A stretch of 36,202 nt of DNA. Origin: Pseudonocardiales bacterium. GTDB lineage: Bacteria > Actinomycetota > Actinomycetes > Mycobacteriales > Jatrophihabitantaceae. The DNA lies in assembly GCA_003243915.1 (NCBI GenBank), contig QHCC01000135.1:1-36202 (forward strand). Reading direction: 5' to 3'. The position numbers and the translations under genes were made by a program. Shown piece after piece: positions 11,494 through 21,950 of this stretch. How positions within the stretch are numbered: the stretch's first letter is position 1; the number at the start of each line of letters is the position of its first letter. The notes below the pieces were generated by a model that had not been told where the DNA came from, did not search any database, and saw only the letters and a program-made list of their open reading frames with translations.

Positions 11494-14117
11494 TCAGCGT
11501 TTCGCGGTGCTGAACCGCGCCGCGCGGCGCCGAATCTGCCGGTGCGGGCGCGGTACCTGTTTTCTGACCGGCGCGGGGACGGCGCCGTAGAACAGTCGCT
11601 TGCCGACCTCGATGAGAGCGAGGTAGCCGACGACCATGCCAGCGAGCGCTGCGAAGAACCCGATCGGTAACGGATGGAATCCGAGTGTGTCGGCCAGCGG
11701 CGTCGCGGGCAGCAGCGTACCGGTCGCGACGACTCCCAGCGCGGCTAGCGTCAGTGGCAGGCTCGGGTGGCTGCGGAAGAAGGGGATGCGACGGGTGCGG
11801 ATCGCGAAGATCACCAGCGTCTGGGTGGCGAGCGACTCGACGAACCAACCGGAGCGGAACTGGGCGGGGCCGGAGTGGAACACCCACAGCATGACGCCGA
11901 AGGTGGTGAAGTCGAACACCGAGCTGATCGGGCCGAAGAACATCATGAAACGGCGGATGAACCGGATGTCCCAGTGAGACGGTCGGCGCAACTGTTCCTC
12001 GTCGACGTTGTCGGTGGGTATGGCCAGTTGGCTGGCGTCATACAGCAGATTGTTGAGCAGGATCTGGGAGGGCAGCATCGGCAGGAACTTCAGGAACAAT
12101 GATGCACCGGCGGCGCTGAACATGTTCCCGAAGTTGCTCGACGTGCCCATCAACACGTACTTGATGGTGTTGGCGAAGATCCGGCGCCCCTCGGCCACCC
12201 CGTCGGCGAGCACGTCAAGATCCTTCTCGAGCAGAATGACATCCGCTGCGTCCTTCGCGACATCGGTTCCCGAATCCACCGAGATGCCTACGTCGGCGGC
12301 ATGCAGGGCCAGCGCGTCGTTGACCCCGTCACCGAGGAAGGCGACGTCACCGCCAGTGCGCCGCTGGACGCGCACGATGCGGGCCTTCTGTTCCGGGCCG
12401 ATGCGCGCGAACACCGTGGTCTTCGCGATCGCCGCGGCAAGCTGGTCGTCATCGAGCGCGCCGAGGTCGGCACCGGTCATCGTGCCGCCATCAGTCAAGC
12501 CGAGATCGCGGCACACCTTGACGGCGACGGCCGCGCTGTCGCCGGTCACCACCTTGACGGTGACGCCCAGATCAGCCAGGCGGCGCAGCGCCTGGACCGC
12601 GCCCCGCTTGGGTGCGTCCAGGAAGACGAGCAGCCCGACCAGTATGAGGTCGTGCTCGTCCGCCGCGGTCGGCACCATGAGGTTGGGCGCGGGTCGGGTG
12701 GCTACCGCGACGACCCGGTTGCCCGCAGCGAACTCTGCGTCCAGGGCAGCGCGGGCAGCAGCGGGAACGTCGACGCACCGCTGCAGGACGGTCTCGGGCG
12801 CGCCCTTGGTGACCATCGTCTGAGTGCCCGCCGGGTCGCAGACGACGACAGAGATCATCCGGCGTTCGTGATCGAACGGCAGAAGGCCGGCCTTGCGCCA
12901 AGCTGGCGCCGCCCGCTCGGTGTCCCCGCCGGGGAGTTCCACAACGCCTGATCAAGCGGATTGCCGCCGACCGCACGTCCCTCCTCGACCGCGATCTCAC
13001 ACGCCCGCAGGCCCCATCTCACGACGTCGTCCGCGGTCTGACCTTCCGCAGGAACGGCACGCATAAAGCTGATTCGTCCCTCGGTGAGGGTCCCGGTCTT
13101 GTCGGTGAACAGCACGTCGACGTCTCCGAGGTCTTCGATGCACACCAGCCGCTTGACGAGCACCTTGCGGTGGCTCATCCGCCGAGAACCCGCCGCCAGA
13201 CTTGTGGACACCACCGCCGGCAGCAGTTGGGGAGTGATCCCGACGGCGATGGCCAGCGAGAACAGCAGCGCATCGAGGATCGGTTTGTGCAGCACGACGT
13301 TGGCGATGAAGATGGCCGTCGTCAGTACGGCCGCGACGTAAACCAGAAGCATGGAGAACTGTCGCAAGCCGACCTGGAACTCGGTGTCCAACTGGTGGGT
13401 GCTCAACCCACTCGCGATCTTGCCGAACTCCGTATGCGAACCGGTGGAAACGACGACACCACGCCCACTACCCGCGTGCACGACCGTTCCCATGAGTGCG
13501 CAACAGGTGAGCTCGGCGAGCACGGTGCCCTCAGCTACCGCCGTCGTGTCCTTATCGACCGGTAACGACTCGCCGGTCAGCACCGATTCATCGCATTCGA
13601 GTCCGACGGTCGTGAGCAGACGGATATCAGCGGGCACGATGTCACCGAGGCGCAGCTCGACCACATCACCGGGGACCAGTTCAGTGACGTCGACATCAGT
13701 CGGTCGCCCCCCGCGCACCGCGACCGAACGGTGGTGGATCTGCGAGTGCAACGCCTCGGCCGCCTTCTCGGCCCGGTACTCATTGACGAAACCGAGCCCG
13801 ACCGACACTGCGACAATGATCGCGATGATGACCGCGTCGCTGCGCTCCCCCACGAAATAGGACGCGATCGCAGCGACCACCAGCAGCCCCAGCAGCGGGG
13901 ACCGCAGTTGATGCCAGAGCACCGGCAGGAACCTCGCCCGGTGCGTCGATACCGTGTTCGGCCCCAACTGGACCAGGCGCCGGCGCGCCTCATCCACCGA
14001 CAGCCCGTCGGCGCTAACACCGAGACCACGCAGCACCCGGTGATCCGGCCGCGCCCCAGCGACCGCGACGCCGCCGGCGGCGTCGGCGGTGGCTTGCTTC
14101 ACGGTCGCAACCGTCAC
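11494..14117 (-). pseudogene. MgtA-type Mg2+/cation P-type ATPase interrupted by a -1 frameshift
   Basis: Two overlapping minus-strand frames together encode a complete P3B-like ATPase of about 873 residues. The N-terminal part from GTG 14117 has the actuator motif SVLTGESLPV and the phosphorylation motif LFTDKTGTLTEG (Asp about 339). It continues to GNPLDQALWNSPAG and then leaves frame, ending at 12855. The C-terminal part resumes as GDTERAAPAW with LPFDHERRM, TKGAPETVLQRC, VKVVTGDSAAVAVKVC and AFLGDGVNDALAL, then the last membrane helices. Adding one G to the G4 run (C4 at 12924-12927 on the plus strand) restores one continuous protein through the nucleotide-binding domain. If real, no active pump is made; a sequencing error is equally possible. 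The start codon is the least certain part. Confidence 0.85.
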
Positions 14118-14387
14118 TGCCGGCCCTCTACTCGTCGATACACGCCCTTCATGACAGCACACGCCGGATTGTCCACAGAGTCCAAGGAGCCGATTGGCAC
14201 CCGTACCTTCGCGGAACGCTCGTGCCGCGTTCCTGCGAGCTGGTCGAGCAGGCCTTGCCGATAGGCCTTCGTCAAGGGTAGAGAGGTAGATGGCAGGGCG
14301 ACTCGCGTCCGGCGGATCGCGCGGAACTGGGGCGATGCCACCGCTAGGTTCCACCATCGCGCGCAGAAGTGCTCGCCGCGACGCACC

Positions 14388-14393
14388 TAGAAT
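14388..14393 (+). promoter_or_regulatory. Candidate -10 box for the Acg-like gene
   Basis: TAGAAT lies 17 nt before the ATG at 14411, giving a short leader of about 10 nt. GAGG occurs both at 14395-14398 and directly against the ATG at 14407-14410; the first is better spaced. No -35 is obvious. The 293-bp gap 14118-14410 shows no convincing gene on either strand. Confidence 0.4.
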
Positions 14394-14410
14394 GAGGACG
14401 GCTATCGAGG

Positions 14411-15463
14411 ATGACGCAGCAACTGCCCGACCAGGCCACGCCAGCGGCGGTCCGGGCAGCCGCTCGCTTTGATCTCGCCTCGGTCGAGGCGGCGTTAGCG
14501 GTGGCGGCCCGCGCACCGTCGATCTACAACTCCCAACCCTGGCGCTGGGAGCTAGGGCCAGAGGGGCTGACCCTGCGCGCGGACCGATCACGGCTGCTCG
14601 CCGTCGCTGACCCTGACGGGCACTCCCTGGTGCTCAGCTGCGGTGCGGCTCTGGCTCTGGCTGAGCTGGGTCTGCGCGCAGCTGGCTGGTCCGTCACGGT
14701 CGACCGTCTACCCGAGGCGGTTGATCCTGACTTGCTGGCTCGGTTGCGTCCATTCGAGCGGGTCGAGCCATCCCGCCTCGACGCCGACCGGGTGGCTGCT
14801 GCCTGGCACCGTCACAGCGACCGGCGACCGTTCGCCAAAGGCCCGGTTCCCCCGCACGTTGTCGACCAACTACGGGCCGCGGCCAGCCAGCCGGGCGTGT
14901 ACGCCGACTTCACGGCCGGGCAAGACGACGACTACATCAAGCTGGCAGTCGCAATCTCACAAGCCGACCGTATCGAGCGACACAACGCCGCGTATGTCGA
15001 GGAGTTGACCAGCTGGGTACGTCCTGACACCAGCCATCCCGACGGGGTCGCGGTCACGTCGGTGCCGCATCTCAGCATCGTGCATCCCCGCCACAGCGAC
15101 GTCGCGCTGCGCAACTTCGAGCAGGCAGTCCCGGGAGTACAGCTCATCGATCTCGATGTCGACGAACATCCCCTGCTGGCGATCGTGCTCACCACGTCGT
15201 TTGGCCCGCTCGCCCATCTGCAGGCAGGCGAAGCGATGATGAATCTGATGATCGAGGCTGATTTGCAGGGGCTGGCGACCTGCGCGCTGAGCCAGGCCGT
15301 TGATCTACTGGCCTTCCGCTCGCGGCTGCAAACCGTGATGGGCTGGATGGACCACCCGCAAATGATGCTCCGAATCGGATACCCTGCCGTCGGCGAGCCA
15401 CCGCCTTCCACCGCACGCAGATCCGTCTCCGACGTATTACTCGTCCAAGACCTCGATCACTAG
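14411..15463 (+). CDS. Acg-like FMN-binding nitroreductase-family protein
   Basis: A protein of 350 residues, the usual length for the duplicated nitroreductase fold of the mycobacterial Acg family (Rv2032, Rv3127, Rv3131). Family marks are AARAPSIYNSQPWRWEL near residue 32, the central HSDRRPFAKGPVP, a mid-protein region with HNAAYVEELTSWV, and C-terminal LQAGEAMMNLMIEADLQGLA followed by LRIGYP. Acg proteins bind FMN but are reported to lack normal nitroreductase activity and may store flavin. In mycobacteria they are controlled by DosR under hypoxia. Here the neighbours (CBS-BON, P-type ATPase, USP, GNAT/acyl-CoA synthetase) match that gene set, supporting a dormancy role by analogy. Confidence 0.88.
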   Translation: MTQQLPDQATPAAVRAAARFDLASVEAALAVAARAPSIYNSQPWRWELGPEGLTLRADRSRLLAVADPDGHSLVLSCGAALALAELGLRAAGWSVTVDRLPEAVDPDLLARLRPFERVEPSRLDADRVAAAWHRHSDRRPFAKGPVPPHVVDQLRAAASQPGVYADFTAGQDDDYIKLAVAISQADRIERHNAAYVEELTSWVRPDTSHPDGVAVTSVPHLSIVHPRHSDVALRNFEQAVPGVQLIDLDVDEHPLLAIVLTTSFGPLAHLQAGEAMMNLMIEADLQGLATCALSQAVDLLAFRSRLQTVMGWMDHPQMMLRIGYPAVGEPPPSTARRSVSDVLLVQDLDH

Positions 15464-15489: not shown

Positions 15490-15790
15490 AGAATTGTGGT
15501 CGAAAATTCGCACTCAGGTTCCCTGCTCGTCCTGCCACTCGGCACACCCTGCCGCGTCGTTCCTCGTCGGGGAACCGGAGCCACGGTATGTGCGCAGTGG
15601 CTAGGGCCTCACGCACATGTGAATGCGGGTTGGGGACGAGTGGCCCGGCGACATCAGATGTCGGCGGCGACCACGGCGTCGCCATCGCGTCGAGGGTGCG
15701 CTCGGCCCGCAAACCGCCAGCAGTTGGTCAAAGTGCGAGCGTGGGCTGGAAGGCAGCGAATGGCATTCGGGGTCAAGGCAGGTCAAAGAT
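15490..15790. other. Gene-poor gap with a 15-bp palindrome
   Basis: No gene is convincing on either strand. The stretch contains the perfect palindrome CGACATC-A-GATGTCG at 15649-15663. It is isolated from recognisable promoter elements. Several AGTTGGTCAAAG/GCAGGTCAAAGA-like words occur near 15722 and 15778, upstream of the candidate cytochrome operon promoter. Confidence 0.4.
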
Positions 15791-15904: not shown

Positions 15905-16042
15905 ATGGCGAGCACCGACACTTTCACTTTCTCTGCCGGAACACATCCCCCCGCGGCGACAACCTCGGCAGAATGCGAACTCGGTGCGCACGGGGCACCG
16001 GTCGACGCCGGGACGGAGATCCGACGGGGGCGACCGGCGTGA
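15905..16042 (+). CDS. 45-residue small ORF leading the cytochrome b operon
   Basis: The frame begins MASTDTFTFSAGTHPPAATT, continues SAECELGAHGAPVDAGTEIR and ends RGRPA. The stop codon overlaps the GTG of the next gene (GTGA at 16039-16042), the same overlap style as the larger genes in this window, which is the main reason to believe it. There is no membrane helix and one cysteine. No strong ribosome site precedes the ATG. I do not recognise the family. It could be a leader peptide coupling translation to the cytochrome genes, or a small subunit. Confidence 0.42.
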   Translation: MASTDTFTFSAGTHPPAATTSAECELGAHGAPVDAGTEIRRGRPA

Positions 16043-16224
16043 TCACTGCTGGAGGGCTGTTGTCGGGTCACGCGCATTTTCTGCATTGGGGGGTGGTGCA
16101 GATTTCGCTGGCGAATCTCCTCGTGATCGTGATGATGGCTGTGCTGTTCCTGCTCGCCGTGATAATCCCCTTCCCGCACGCTCAGCACTCTGCGGTAGAG
16201 CAGGAGCAGGCCGATGACCACTAA
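16039..16224 (+). CDS. 61-residue single-helix membrane protein of the cytochrome b operon
   Basis: From GTG 16039 the protein has a short N-terminus with several histidines (SGHAHFLHWGVVQISLA), one long hydrophobic helix (about residues 20-44, containing NLLVIVMMAVLFLLAVII) and a charged tail. A G-rich stretch at 16025-16031 may serve as ribosome site. Its 3' end overlaps the cytochrome b gene by 11 bp, so the two are probably co-translated. Small single-helix subunits are common in cytochrome bc/b6f and oxidase complexes. I do not recognise the family; a small subunit of the complex encoded next door is the natural inference. Confidence 0.72.
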   Translation: MITAGGLLSGHAHFLHWGVVQISLANLLVIVMMAVLFLLAVIIPFPHAQHSAVEQEQADDH

Positions 16225-16915
16225 CCAGCCCGACCCGCGGAGCTGGACGGTACGACTGCGTACCAGGCTGGCCCGGACGGTGCCCGCGGGCCAGCTGTTG
16301 CCCGACCGTCAACCCGCCTACGTGCGTTCGTGGATCTACGTCTTCGGGGTCGCCAGCCTGGCGGCATTCGTCTACGTCATCGCGTCGGGTCTGGTCCTCT
16401 CGCTCAAGGGTTCGGCCTGGTGGCACACGTCATCGGCCGGTCATTTCGTCAACTCCACGCACCTGTGGAGTGTCGAGTTGTTTTTCATGTTCATGGTCAT
16501 TCACCTGTGGGGCAAGTTCTTCATGGCCGCGTGGCGGGGCCGCCGTGCGCTGACCTGGATCACCGGGGCGGTTGCGTTCATCGGCTCGGTCGGTACCGCG
16601 TTCACCGGCTATCTTTCGCAGTCGAACTTCGACTCCCAATGGACCGCCGGGCAGGCAAAAGACGGCCTCAACGCGGTGGGCATCGGCTCGGTGTTCAATG
16701 TCCTGAATACCGGGCAGATGCTGCTGTGGCATGTGATGCTGCTGCCGCTGGTGCTCGGTGTCCTGATCGTGCTGCACATCGTTTTGGTTCGCAGGCATGG
16801 TGTTGTGCCGCCCTTTGACGCAATCCCGCCAGATCGCGACCACGCTGAGGTAACCGGGCCGCCCGGGGCGGATGACGCGCTGAGCCCGGAACCTGTCGCA
16901 CCTGTGCTGCGATGA
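16214..16915 (+). CDS. Di-haem cytochrome b, b6-like N-terminal domain protein
   Basis: A protein of 233 residues with four predicted membrane helices, corresponding to the haem-bearing N-terminal half of cytochrome b. Candidate haem ligands are His83 and His97 (STHLWSVELF, VIHLWGKFF; spacing 14) and His173 and His188 (LLWHVMLL, VLHIVLVRRHG; spacing 15). The 14/15 pattern is that of cytochrome b6 rather than mitochondrial cytochrome b (14/14). GYLSQSNFDSQWTAGQAKDG lies between helices C and D near the quinol-site region. It overlaps both neighbours. Such proteins pass electrons between menaquinol and a partner. No Rieske protein or CxxCH cytochrome c is encoded in this window, so the electron partner is unknown. 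Confidence 0.88.
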   Translation: MTTNQPDPRSWTVRLRTRLARTVPAGQLLPDRQPAYVRSWIYVFGVASLAAFVYVIASGLVLSLKGSAWWHTSSAGHFVNSTHLWSVELFFMFMVIHLWGKFFMAAWRGRRALTWITGAVAFIGSVGTAFTGYLSQSNFDSQWTAGQAKDGLNAVGIGSVFNVLNTGQMLLWHVMLLPLVLGVLIVLHIVLVRRHGVVPPFDAIPPDRDHAEVTGPPGADDALSPEPVAPVLR

Positions 16916-17850
16916 GCGCCACAGCCCGGTCTCGCCGCAGCAAGGCCACCCGAGACGCGCACCTGTTCCCCACCCGGCCCTATGACCTGGTCAAAGAGTT
17001 CGTCGTCGCGATGCTCGTCGTCGGAATATTGACAGTCCTGCTGGCCGTGGTGTTCTCCTCACCCGACCGTAAGGCAGTCACCCTCGCCGCATGGGCCAAG
17101 GCTGCACCCAACGATGTGGTGGCCACCGCGACCGCTGAGCTCGCCGGCACCAGCACCAGCGCTGGCTACGGGCCCCCCTATAACCACGCCGCGCCGGGAC
17201 AGAACCTCGGCCCGCTGCGGCTGCAGCGCCTCGGCGGGGTCCGGATCCCGATCGACAGCGCCAATGACCTCGTCATCTCCCCACTGAGCGCCGTCACCGG
17301 GGACGCGGCCCTGTCCGTTGCTCTGCGTACGTGGCGGTCGGCCTCCGACGTTCAGCGCACCACGTGGGCCGGGCACTACGCAGACGCCCTTGCCGCCGTC
17401 GCGGACGGCGACCCCGCCAAGGTCGCCGCCGGGACATACGGCCCGGTCCCGATACTGGCGAACCGGTTGATGAGCCTGGCTCGCAGCGGATCCCTGGAAG
17501 GGCTGCTGACTAGCGGCGGCACCTTCTACAGCAGCGACGAAACCAAGCCGCTGTTGCTGCTCACCGACGGCACCTACCTCGAGGAACAAGCTCGCGCTGA
17601 TCACCTGGGCGGTGATCAGTGGGGAATGATGAACGAAACCGGCAACTACCCCGGCCAGCCCTGGATGTGGCTTTACACGTTCTGGTATCAGGTCAAACCG
17701 TTCTCCACCTCCACCAACGCCGACGCCCTGGTGTGGGGCCTGATGGCCGCGCTCACCCTCATCTTCACCTTCGTCCCGTTCGTCCCCGGACTGCGCTCAC
17801 TACCCCGCCACCTGGGCGTCCACCGCCTCATATGGCGACAACGCCCCTGA
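16912..17850 (+). CDS. Membrane partner of the cytochrome b with large extracytoplasmic domain (subunit IV-like)
   Basis: A protein of 312 residues overlapping cytochrome b as ATGA. A basic N-terminus is followed by FPTRPYDLVKEFVVAMLVVG and a membrane helix (about 28-50). Then comes an extracytoplasmic domain of about 200 residues (50-255), including GYGPPYNH, GPLRLQRLGGVRIPIDSAND and QWGMMNETGNYPG. A C-terminal part with PWMWLYTFWYQVKPF and one or two helices ends in FVPFVPGLRSLPRH. The last part recalls subunit IV / C-terminal cytochrome b, with PWMWLYTFWY at the place of the PEWY quinol motif, although PEWY itself is absent. There are no cysteines, so no c-type haem or Fe-S cluster. It probably completes the cytochrome b; the role of the large domain is unknown. 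Confidence 0.75.
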   Translation: MSATARSRRSKATRDAHLFPTRPYDLVKEFVVAMLVVGILTVLLAVVFSSPDRKAVTLAAWAKAAPNDVVATATAELAGTSTSAGYGPPYNHAAPGQNLGPLRLQRLGGVRIPIDSANDLVISPLSAVTGDAALSVALRTWRSASDVQRTTWAGHYADALAAVADGDPAKVAAGTYGPVPILANRLMSLARSGSLEGLLTSGGTFYSSDETKPLLLLTDGTYLEEQARADHLGGDQWGMMNETGNYPGQPWMWLYTFWYQVKPFSTSTNADALVWGLMAALTLIFTFVPFVPGLRSLPRHLGVHRLIWRQRP

Positions 17851-21875: not shown

Positions 21876-21910
21876 CTTCACAGCCTGTCTGCCAGGCAGG
21901 CCGGCCAACA

Positions 21911-21924
21911 GGGCCTAACGGCCC
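21911..21924. promoter_or_regulatory. DosR-like palindrome upstream of the acs-usp operon
   Basis: GGGCCTAACGGCCC matches the 14-bp core of the mycobacterial DosR box (GGGACTWWAGTCCC) at 11 positions. If transcription starts at the ATG of the acyl-CoA synthetase (21875; CAGGCT -10 six bases upstream), the centre lies at -42.5, the usual place for an activator overlapping -35. The downstream genes are typical DosR targets. The identity of the binding protein is inferred. Confidence 0.45.
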
Positions 21925-21950
21925 GAGCGGAGCCGGCCACCGTCGGCTCT

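Follow-up and report, generated by a model that had tools for sequence, protein, structure and literature searches.

Cytochrome b of the bc and b6f kind is tied in textbooks to a Rieske protein and to electron bifurcation. A complex that keeps the di-haem core but swaps its partner would reveal what the core does alone. The closest described relatives of the cytochrome studied here are cytochrome b6 (PetB) and the N-terminal half of actinobacterial QcrB, which share with it four helices, haem-ligand histidines spaced 14 and 15 residues apart and a conserved R..TW.TG loop. ExtP (NF040969), encoded in a selenite/tellurite reduction operon, is likewise a b6-type cytochrome outside the bc complex. 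On the side of regulation, the DevR/DosR regulon of M. tuberculosis and the OsdR regulon of S. coelicolor have in common with our loci a DNA box, for which CGGGACCTTCGGCCCT is a tested OsdR site, and a set of neighbours comprising Usp, nitroreductase, PPDK, Zn-dependent alcohol dehydrogenase and a DevS/DevR-type pair. The site CGGGACCTTCGGCCCT, at SCO5979, is among the predicted sites bound in vitro by OsdR (PMC5069765). The word cytochrome does not occur in that paper, so the genes described below are not presented there as regulon members (PMC5069765). A search of open-licence papers found no description of them. Within the literature open to search the cassette is undescribed, with its core kept, its partner replaced and its regulation assigned.

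The window, the whole stretch of 36,202 nucleotides that was analysed, carries a cassette of three genes, s61, b6 and IV, at 16039-17850. The features discussed here are as follows.

15633..15646, plus strand: weak candidate DevR/OsdR half-site pair GGGACGAGTGGCCC, an exact GGGACNNNNGNCCC match 406 bp upstream of s61
15905..16042, plus strand: 45-aa reading frame of the original prediction, probably not a cassette gene
16039..16224, plus strand: s61, 61-aa single-helix subunit with a GTG start, transmembrane helix at about 27-45, hydropathy peak 3.19
16214..16915, plus strand: b6-like di-haem cytochrome b, 233 aa, four transmembrane helices
16912..17850, plus strand: 312-aa partner, labelled IV by position only, two transmembrane helices and an extracytoplasmic domain
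21907..21926, minus strand: good DevR/OsdR-type box TCGGGCCGTTAGGCCCTGTT, the highest-scoring PWM hit of the window (14.3)

The coordinates, the lengths (45, 61, 233 and 312 aa) and the overlaps of the four frames in the original prediction were all correct: the 45-aa frame and s61 overlap in GTGA, s61 and b6 by 11 bp, and b6 and IV in ATGA (4 bases). The proposal of a four-gene operon did not stand, as the first frame is not conserved. Its best tblastn E value was 0.54, the hits were scattered and there was no convincing relative in other loci, and it was rejected as a cassette member. Judged from sequence, the cassette is real, because its conservation at 48-77% identity across 80 loci rules out chance.

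By sequence, the 233-aa protein is the N-terminal half of a di-haem cytochrome b. It matches PF13631 (Cytochrom_B_N_2) at 2.6e-13, scoring 50.7 bits where the cut-off is 27, and falls just under the cut-off of PF00033 (25.6 against 27.2). The b6 chains in the PDB match it at 1.7e-8 (1q90_B), and a profile comparison of its family with the QcrB N-half gave 7.9e-14. His83, His97, His173 and His188, the two ligand pairs with the spacing of 14 and 15, are 100% invariant (n = 77 sequences). The assignment as a b6-type di-haem cytochrome b is thus borne out by the Pfam and PDB matches and the four invariant histidines. By analogy, His83 and His173 would ligate the p-side haem and His97 and His188 the n-side haem. 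The nearest NCBIfam models are ExtP and cytochrome b6, both far under their cut-offs; ExtP is the best of them with 45.9 bits against a 290-bit cut-off, and differs from the cassette in that no c-type gene is linked here. Compared with b6 and QcrB, the protein has a shorter cd loop and carries LSQ.NFDSQW in place of the LPW-type Qo motif. Conservation is found on its cytoplasmic face (AWRGRR..TW.TG and R193) and also on its extracytoplasmic face, where the conserved p-side loops read TGYLSQ.NFDSQW...KDG.N. No conserved cysteine was found in the b6-like family, and therefore a covalent third haem of the b6f type would not be expected. The triad differs from b6f in lacking a conserved Cys that could hold a c-type third haem, in a partner without homology to subunit IV and in having no Rieske gene in the cassette.

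The topology of the 312-aa partner, taken from hydropathy and AlphaFold, comprises a transmembrane helix at about 26-48, a helical domain at about 50-235 and a second transmembrane helix at about 270-290; there is no third transmembrane helix. The model has a pLDDT of 83.1, and the extracytoplasmic domain alone, of about 190 residues and predicted to be all-helical, reached a pLDDT of 84.2 and a pTM of 0.81. That this large domain is free of cysteine, as had been noticed at the outset, holds beyond the window: no Cys is present in the window's protein or in 77 of 84 aligned relatives, and neither Cys nor His is conserved in the family. The near-invariant segment GDQWGMMNETG.YPGQ.W.WLYtFWYQ precedes the second transmembrane helix, a position before a helix that recalls, by analogy only, the PEWY/PDWY of cytochrome b. 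Searches of Pfam, NCBIfam and PDB sequences with the 312-aa protein returned no match to a characterised family or to any other entry, and the protein represents an unnamed family. The description of it as subunit IV-like proved to be a matter of topology alone. It has no match to PF00032 at E up to 1, and it was rejected as a subunit IV homologue after profile-profile comparison with 9-10 bc cytochrome b sequences gave no alignment to the QcrB C-half; the best profile score of the family against QcrB (E 0.15) was to an unrelated helix. At the sequence level, homology to subunit IV or the QcrB C-half is not detectable, and a remote kinship below detection is possible. No PEWY-type Qo motif was recognisable in the profile comparison with QcrB. 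Foldseek gave a best E of 3.9 for the isolated domain and 3.2 for the whole 312-aa chain, with no convincing PDB fold. VIA-align gave nothing at Z >= 2 for the isolated domain and no convincing match for the whole model. As modelled, the helical domain has a fold unmatched in the PDB, and such absence of a match is no proof of a new fold.

A scan of contigs yielded 230 relatives of IV, of which the best 80 were retrieved and 79 loci analysed. Among these loci, drawn from the best 80 of the 230 relatives, b6 lies directly upstream of IV in 75 of 79 and s61 is called directly before b6 in 61 of 79. Clustering of the neighbours across the 79 loci identified no constant neighbour besides the triad, and a Pfam scan of 135 near neighbours found no family in more than 7. 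The neighbourhood survey that had been suggested for the 233/312 pair therefore leaves the triad as the sole constant unit. The overlap is exactly 4 nt at 52 of 82 b6-IV junctions. Among 101 related genomes the two large genes occur in the same 9-10, and G018 has a remnant only. In an even sample of Actinomycetota IV is present in 10 of 246 genomes; in a second phylum, to which G339 (record label Chloroflexi) belongs, it is present in 23 of 151, again as the triad. The triad is carried by many soil actinobacteria and by this second group. Natural fusions are of two kinds, s61-b6-IV and b6-IV (loci L011 and L105): in G002 (L011), from the window's family, s61, fused to the N-terminus of b6, forms a single frame of 644 aa with b6 and IV, and in G174 (L110, G174:C1) b6 and IV make one fused protein of ~536 aa. 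Because the cassette is complete in most of ~80 loci, recurs in a second phylum and is fused in two ways, s61, b6 and IV very probably form one complex. From the order of the fusions and the helix count, the termini at each junction, including the C-terminus of s61, should be cytoplasmic.

Some loci deserve separate mention. The decayed cassette of G018 (L012) has a short frame in which the beginning of helix B of b6 is linked to the C-terminal end of IV, its s61 is still readable and it adjoins an Acg-type nitroreductase gene. G188 (97% complete) is a small genome with two cassettes (L111 and L112), each on its own contig. Two loci labelled Acidobacteria have neighbourhoods like those of Acidimicrobiaceae records and may be mislabelled.

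No Rieske or c-type gene lies inside the cassette at any of 122 loci, and neither kind lies in the retrieved flank at about 118 of them, the Rieske motif being searched with a regular expression that recovered 10 of 10 control Rieske genes. The triad has no motif that would bind an iron-sulphur cluster or haem c: CXXCH does not occur in it and, among near neighbours, was seen only in a thioredoxin-like protein. A true Rieske motif near the cassette was found at four of the 122 loci, while five further matches to the pattern were chance-type or off-pattern frames. The four belong to DoxX/DoxD-Rieske membrane proteins about 2-3 kb from the triad (Pfam was scanned for three), which are absent near the other 118.

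L043:11642-12871, minus strand: DoxX/DoxD-Rieske gene, Actinomycetota locus
L073:12952-14208, plus strand: DoxX/DoxD-Rieske gene, Actinomycetota locus
L149:12959-14083, minus strand: DoxX/DoxD-Rieske gene, second phylum
L154 near 1314, minus strand: DoxX/DoxD-Rieske gene, second phylum

Of the original prediction that a Rieske or c-type partner is missing, the part concerning the cassette and about 118 of the 122 flanks stands, and the part that fails concerns the four loci with a DoxX/DoxD-Rieske gene nearby. A Rieske gene is not always linked in homologous loci, the linkage being confined to these 4 of 122 in two phyla. The gene directly after the DoxX/DoxD-Rieske gene of L073 encodes a membrane protein of 238 aa that has no Pfam match, and L154 encodes a similar protein of 192 aa.

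These genes bear on the alternative that the triad runs a bc-like Q-cycle with a Rieske protein encoded outside the cassette, be it the DoxX/DoxD-Rieske protein, QcrA of the bcc complex or an exported Rieske protein. The proximity at L043 and L073 in Actinomycetota and at L149 and L154 in the second phylum argues for it, as does a DoxX/DoxD-Rieske gene in the window's own genome (G000:C33:8641-9627). In both samples, genomes with the cassette carry the fused DoxX-Rieske more often, with 4 of 10 versus 3 of 236 others in Actinomycetota (Fisher 4.6e-5) and 7 of 23 versus 12 of 128 in the second phylum (Fisher 0.011; 10 of 23 when contig-broken copies are included), but both samples are confounded by kinship and 3 of the 4 hits share one family. 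Canonical Rieske proteins are present in every genome tested, with Rieske genes somewhere in 13 of 13 further cassette genomes. Linkage in just 4 of 122 loci speaks against this alternative, and the co-occurrence is broken in both directions: in the set of relatives, several family members (G001, G003, G005, G009 and G014) carry DoxX-Rieske and lack the cassette, and in G025 and G040, cassette genomes of one contig each, the DoxX part found no match. G188 and G298 offer no candidate beyond QcrA. The single Rieske gene of G188 is within the canonical bc operon, as compared with its two cassettes, and in G298 the Rieske gene is that of the canonical bc operon only, together with a 118-codon frame. 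The lack of a recognisable PEWY-type Qo motif points the same way. Taken with this evidence, a Rieske protein acting in trans is rather unlikely. The DoxX/DoxD-Rieske protein as an obligate partner was rejected owing to its incomplete co-occurrence with the cassette; since many of the window's relatives carry it but not the cassette and G025 and G040 show no DoxX match, it is a serious candidate for a partner of the non-obligate kind.

A separate bc cytochrome b was detected in 14 of 14 cassette genomes tested, 12 of them above the QcrB cut-off, and in the window's genome a Rieske gene adjoins QcrB on contig C98. On the best explanation, the cassette acts as an accessory of the usual bcc complex.

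The DevR/OsdR box was assessed with a pattern, GGGACNNNNGNCCC, that was fixed before the enrichment test but after a first scan with the DosR consensus upstream of s61. Exact GGGACNNNNGNCCC matches precede 13 of 78 cassettes versus 11 of 505 non-cassette genes at those loci (Fisher 1.3e-6), a p-value that, like others for the box, is optimistic because related loci count as separate cases. A leave-one-out matrix score above 12 was reached by 52.6% of cassettes versus 4.8%. The box, usually 70-110 bp upstream of the cassette, has the consensus nnGGGaCcttcGGCcCTacn, which equals the OsdR site CGGGACCTTCGGCCCT at SCO5979 (PMC5069765). At L043 and L073 the same boxes also stand ahead of the neighbouring genes for DevR-like, DevS-like and nitroreductase proteins, and at L116 and L117 the triad stands among Usp, PPDK, alcohol dehydrogenase, nitroreductase and CBS genes. 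Cassettes often adjoin DevS/DevR-type, Acg-type nitroreductase and Usp genes. In the second phylum the enrichment of the box before the cassette was not significant; DevS-type GAF-GAF-HisKA_3 kinases are encoded within the retrieved flank of several cassettes there. Within 260 bp of the cassette in the window the best score is 0.4, short of a good box, and the match at 15633 is perhaps due to chance because there are three such matches in the whole window. The box at 21907..21926 heads a divergent GNAT-acyl-CoA synthetase / Usp pair. The hypoxia-type neighbours first noticed in the window are present, namely a nitroreductase (PF00881), Usp, the GNAT-acyl-CoA synthetase and a P-type ATPase, and the setting is strengthened by the DevR/OsdR boxes across the family. 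On the evidence of these motifs, membership of the DevR/OsdR dormancy regulon in many hosts is the best explanation. The triad is also a candidate for a missing respiratory component of the actinobacterial hypoxic dormancy programme. It touches the open question of how dormant actinobacteria balance the quinone pool without oxygen, and for work in hosts that can be cultured, Kitasatospora, Streptomyces, Amycolatopsis and Cryobacterium among them, the boxes offer a direct handle.

How would such a complex work? Our tentative preference, which we put at a little short of an even chance, is a Rieske-free, menaquinol-linked transmembrane electron conduit of the dormancy regulon, accessory to bcc. 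In its specific form, which is possible but doubtful, it would be a non-bifurcating, hypoxia-induced redox valve on a b6 core that delivers both electrons of menaquinol to an extracytoplasmic acceptor at the helical domain of unmatched fold. The three subunits, with seven helices and two b haems, would constitute one membrane complex. Both electrons would cross the membrane via the two haems, with no bifurcation, since no Rieske protein or other high-potential one-electron acceptor takes the first electron. The most likely direction would be from menaquinol at the cytoplasmic (Qi-like) side to the extracytoplasmic acceptor, because the membrane potential favours outward flow and such flow suits an electron sink under hypoxia. 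The acceptor could bind where the p-side loops of b6 come together with two parts of the 312-aa protein, its GDQWGMMNETG segment and its helical domain, and candidates are a quinone, a flavin, another small redox compound or a soluble protein. The membrane potential would help to draw electrons off a quinone pool that has become over-reduced under hypoxia.

Flow in the opposite direction, in which the complex would take electrons from superoxide, ferrous iron or a reduced small molecule outside the cytoplasm and pass them to menaquinone, in the manner of a superoxide:quinone or hydroquinone:quinone oxidoreductase, is a distinctly less probable reading. A di-haem membrane cytochrome without a p-side cofactor could act so, by analogy with the CybB-type superoxide oxidase. 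Yet most hosts are heterotrophs, induction by hypoxia points to a sink and not a source, and no donor-binding signature was found. That the triad is a non-catalytic accessory or regulatory set which, for example, senses redox state or helps bcc-aa3 to assemble or hibernate under hypoxia, would suit its helical extracytoplasmic domain without a cofactor site, the Acidimicrobiaceae-type loci that place the cassette between CtaA, CtaB, TlpA-like and CtaG genes and the canonical bcc present throughout the 14 cassette genomes tested, but is very unlikely given that neither the haem ligands, all four of them, nor the quinone-side motifs vary over two phyla, which is more than a purely structural role would need.

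Other genes at these loci are recorded here as observations. In the window, the P-type ATPase at 11494-14591 (minus strand) is split over two overlapping frames (482 and 578 aa), a sign of a frameshift or of an error in the assembly. In the second phylum, L138, L151 and L152 have acetate kinase and phosphoketolase genes beside or near the triad, and these fit a fermentative, low-oxygen setting. Ferric-reductase-like and ApbE genes lie within 10 kb of the cassette at L019, L036, L056, L061 and L115, accompanied, except at L036, by a gene for an exported FMN-binding protein. Near the cassette in these five loci only, the ferric-reductase/FMN-bind/ApbE group was not adopted as the partner and is kept as a lead, in which extracytoplasmic electron transfer by flavin is possible.
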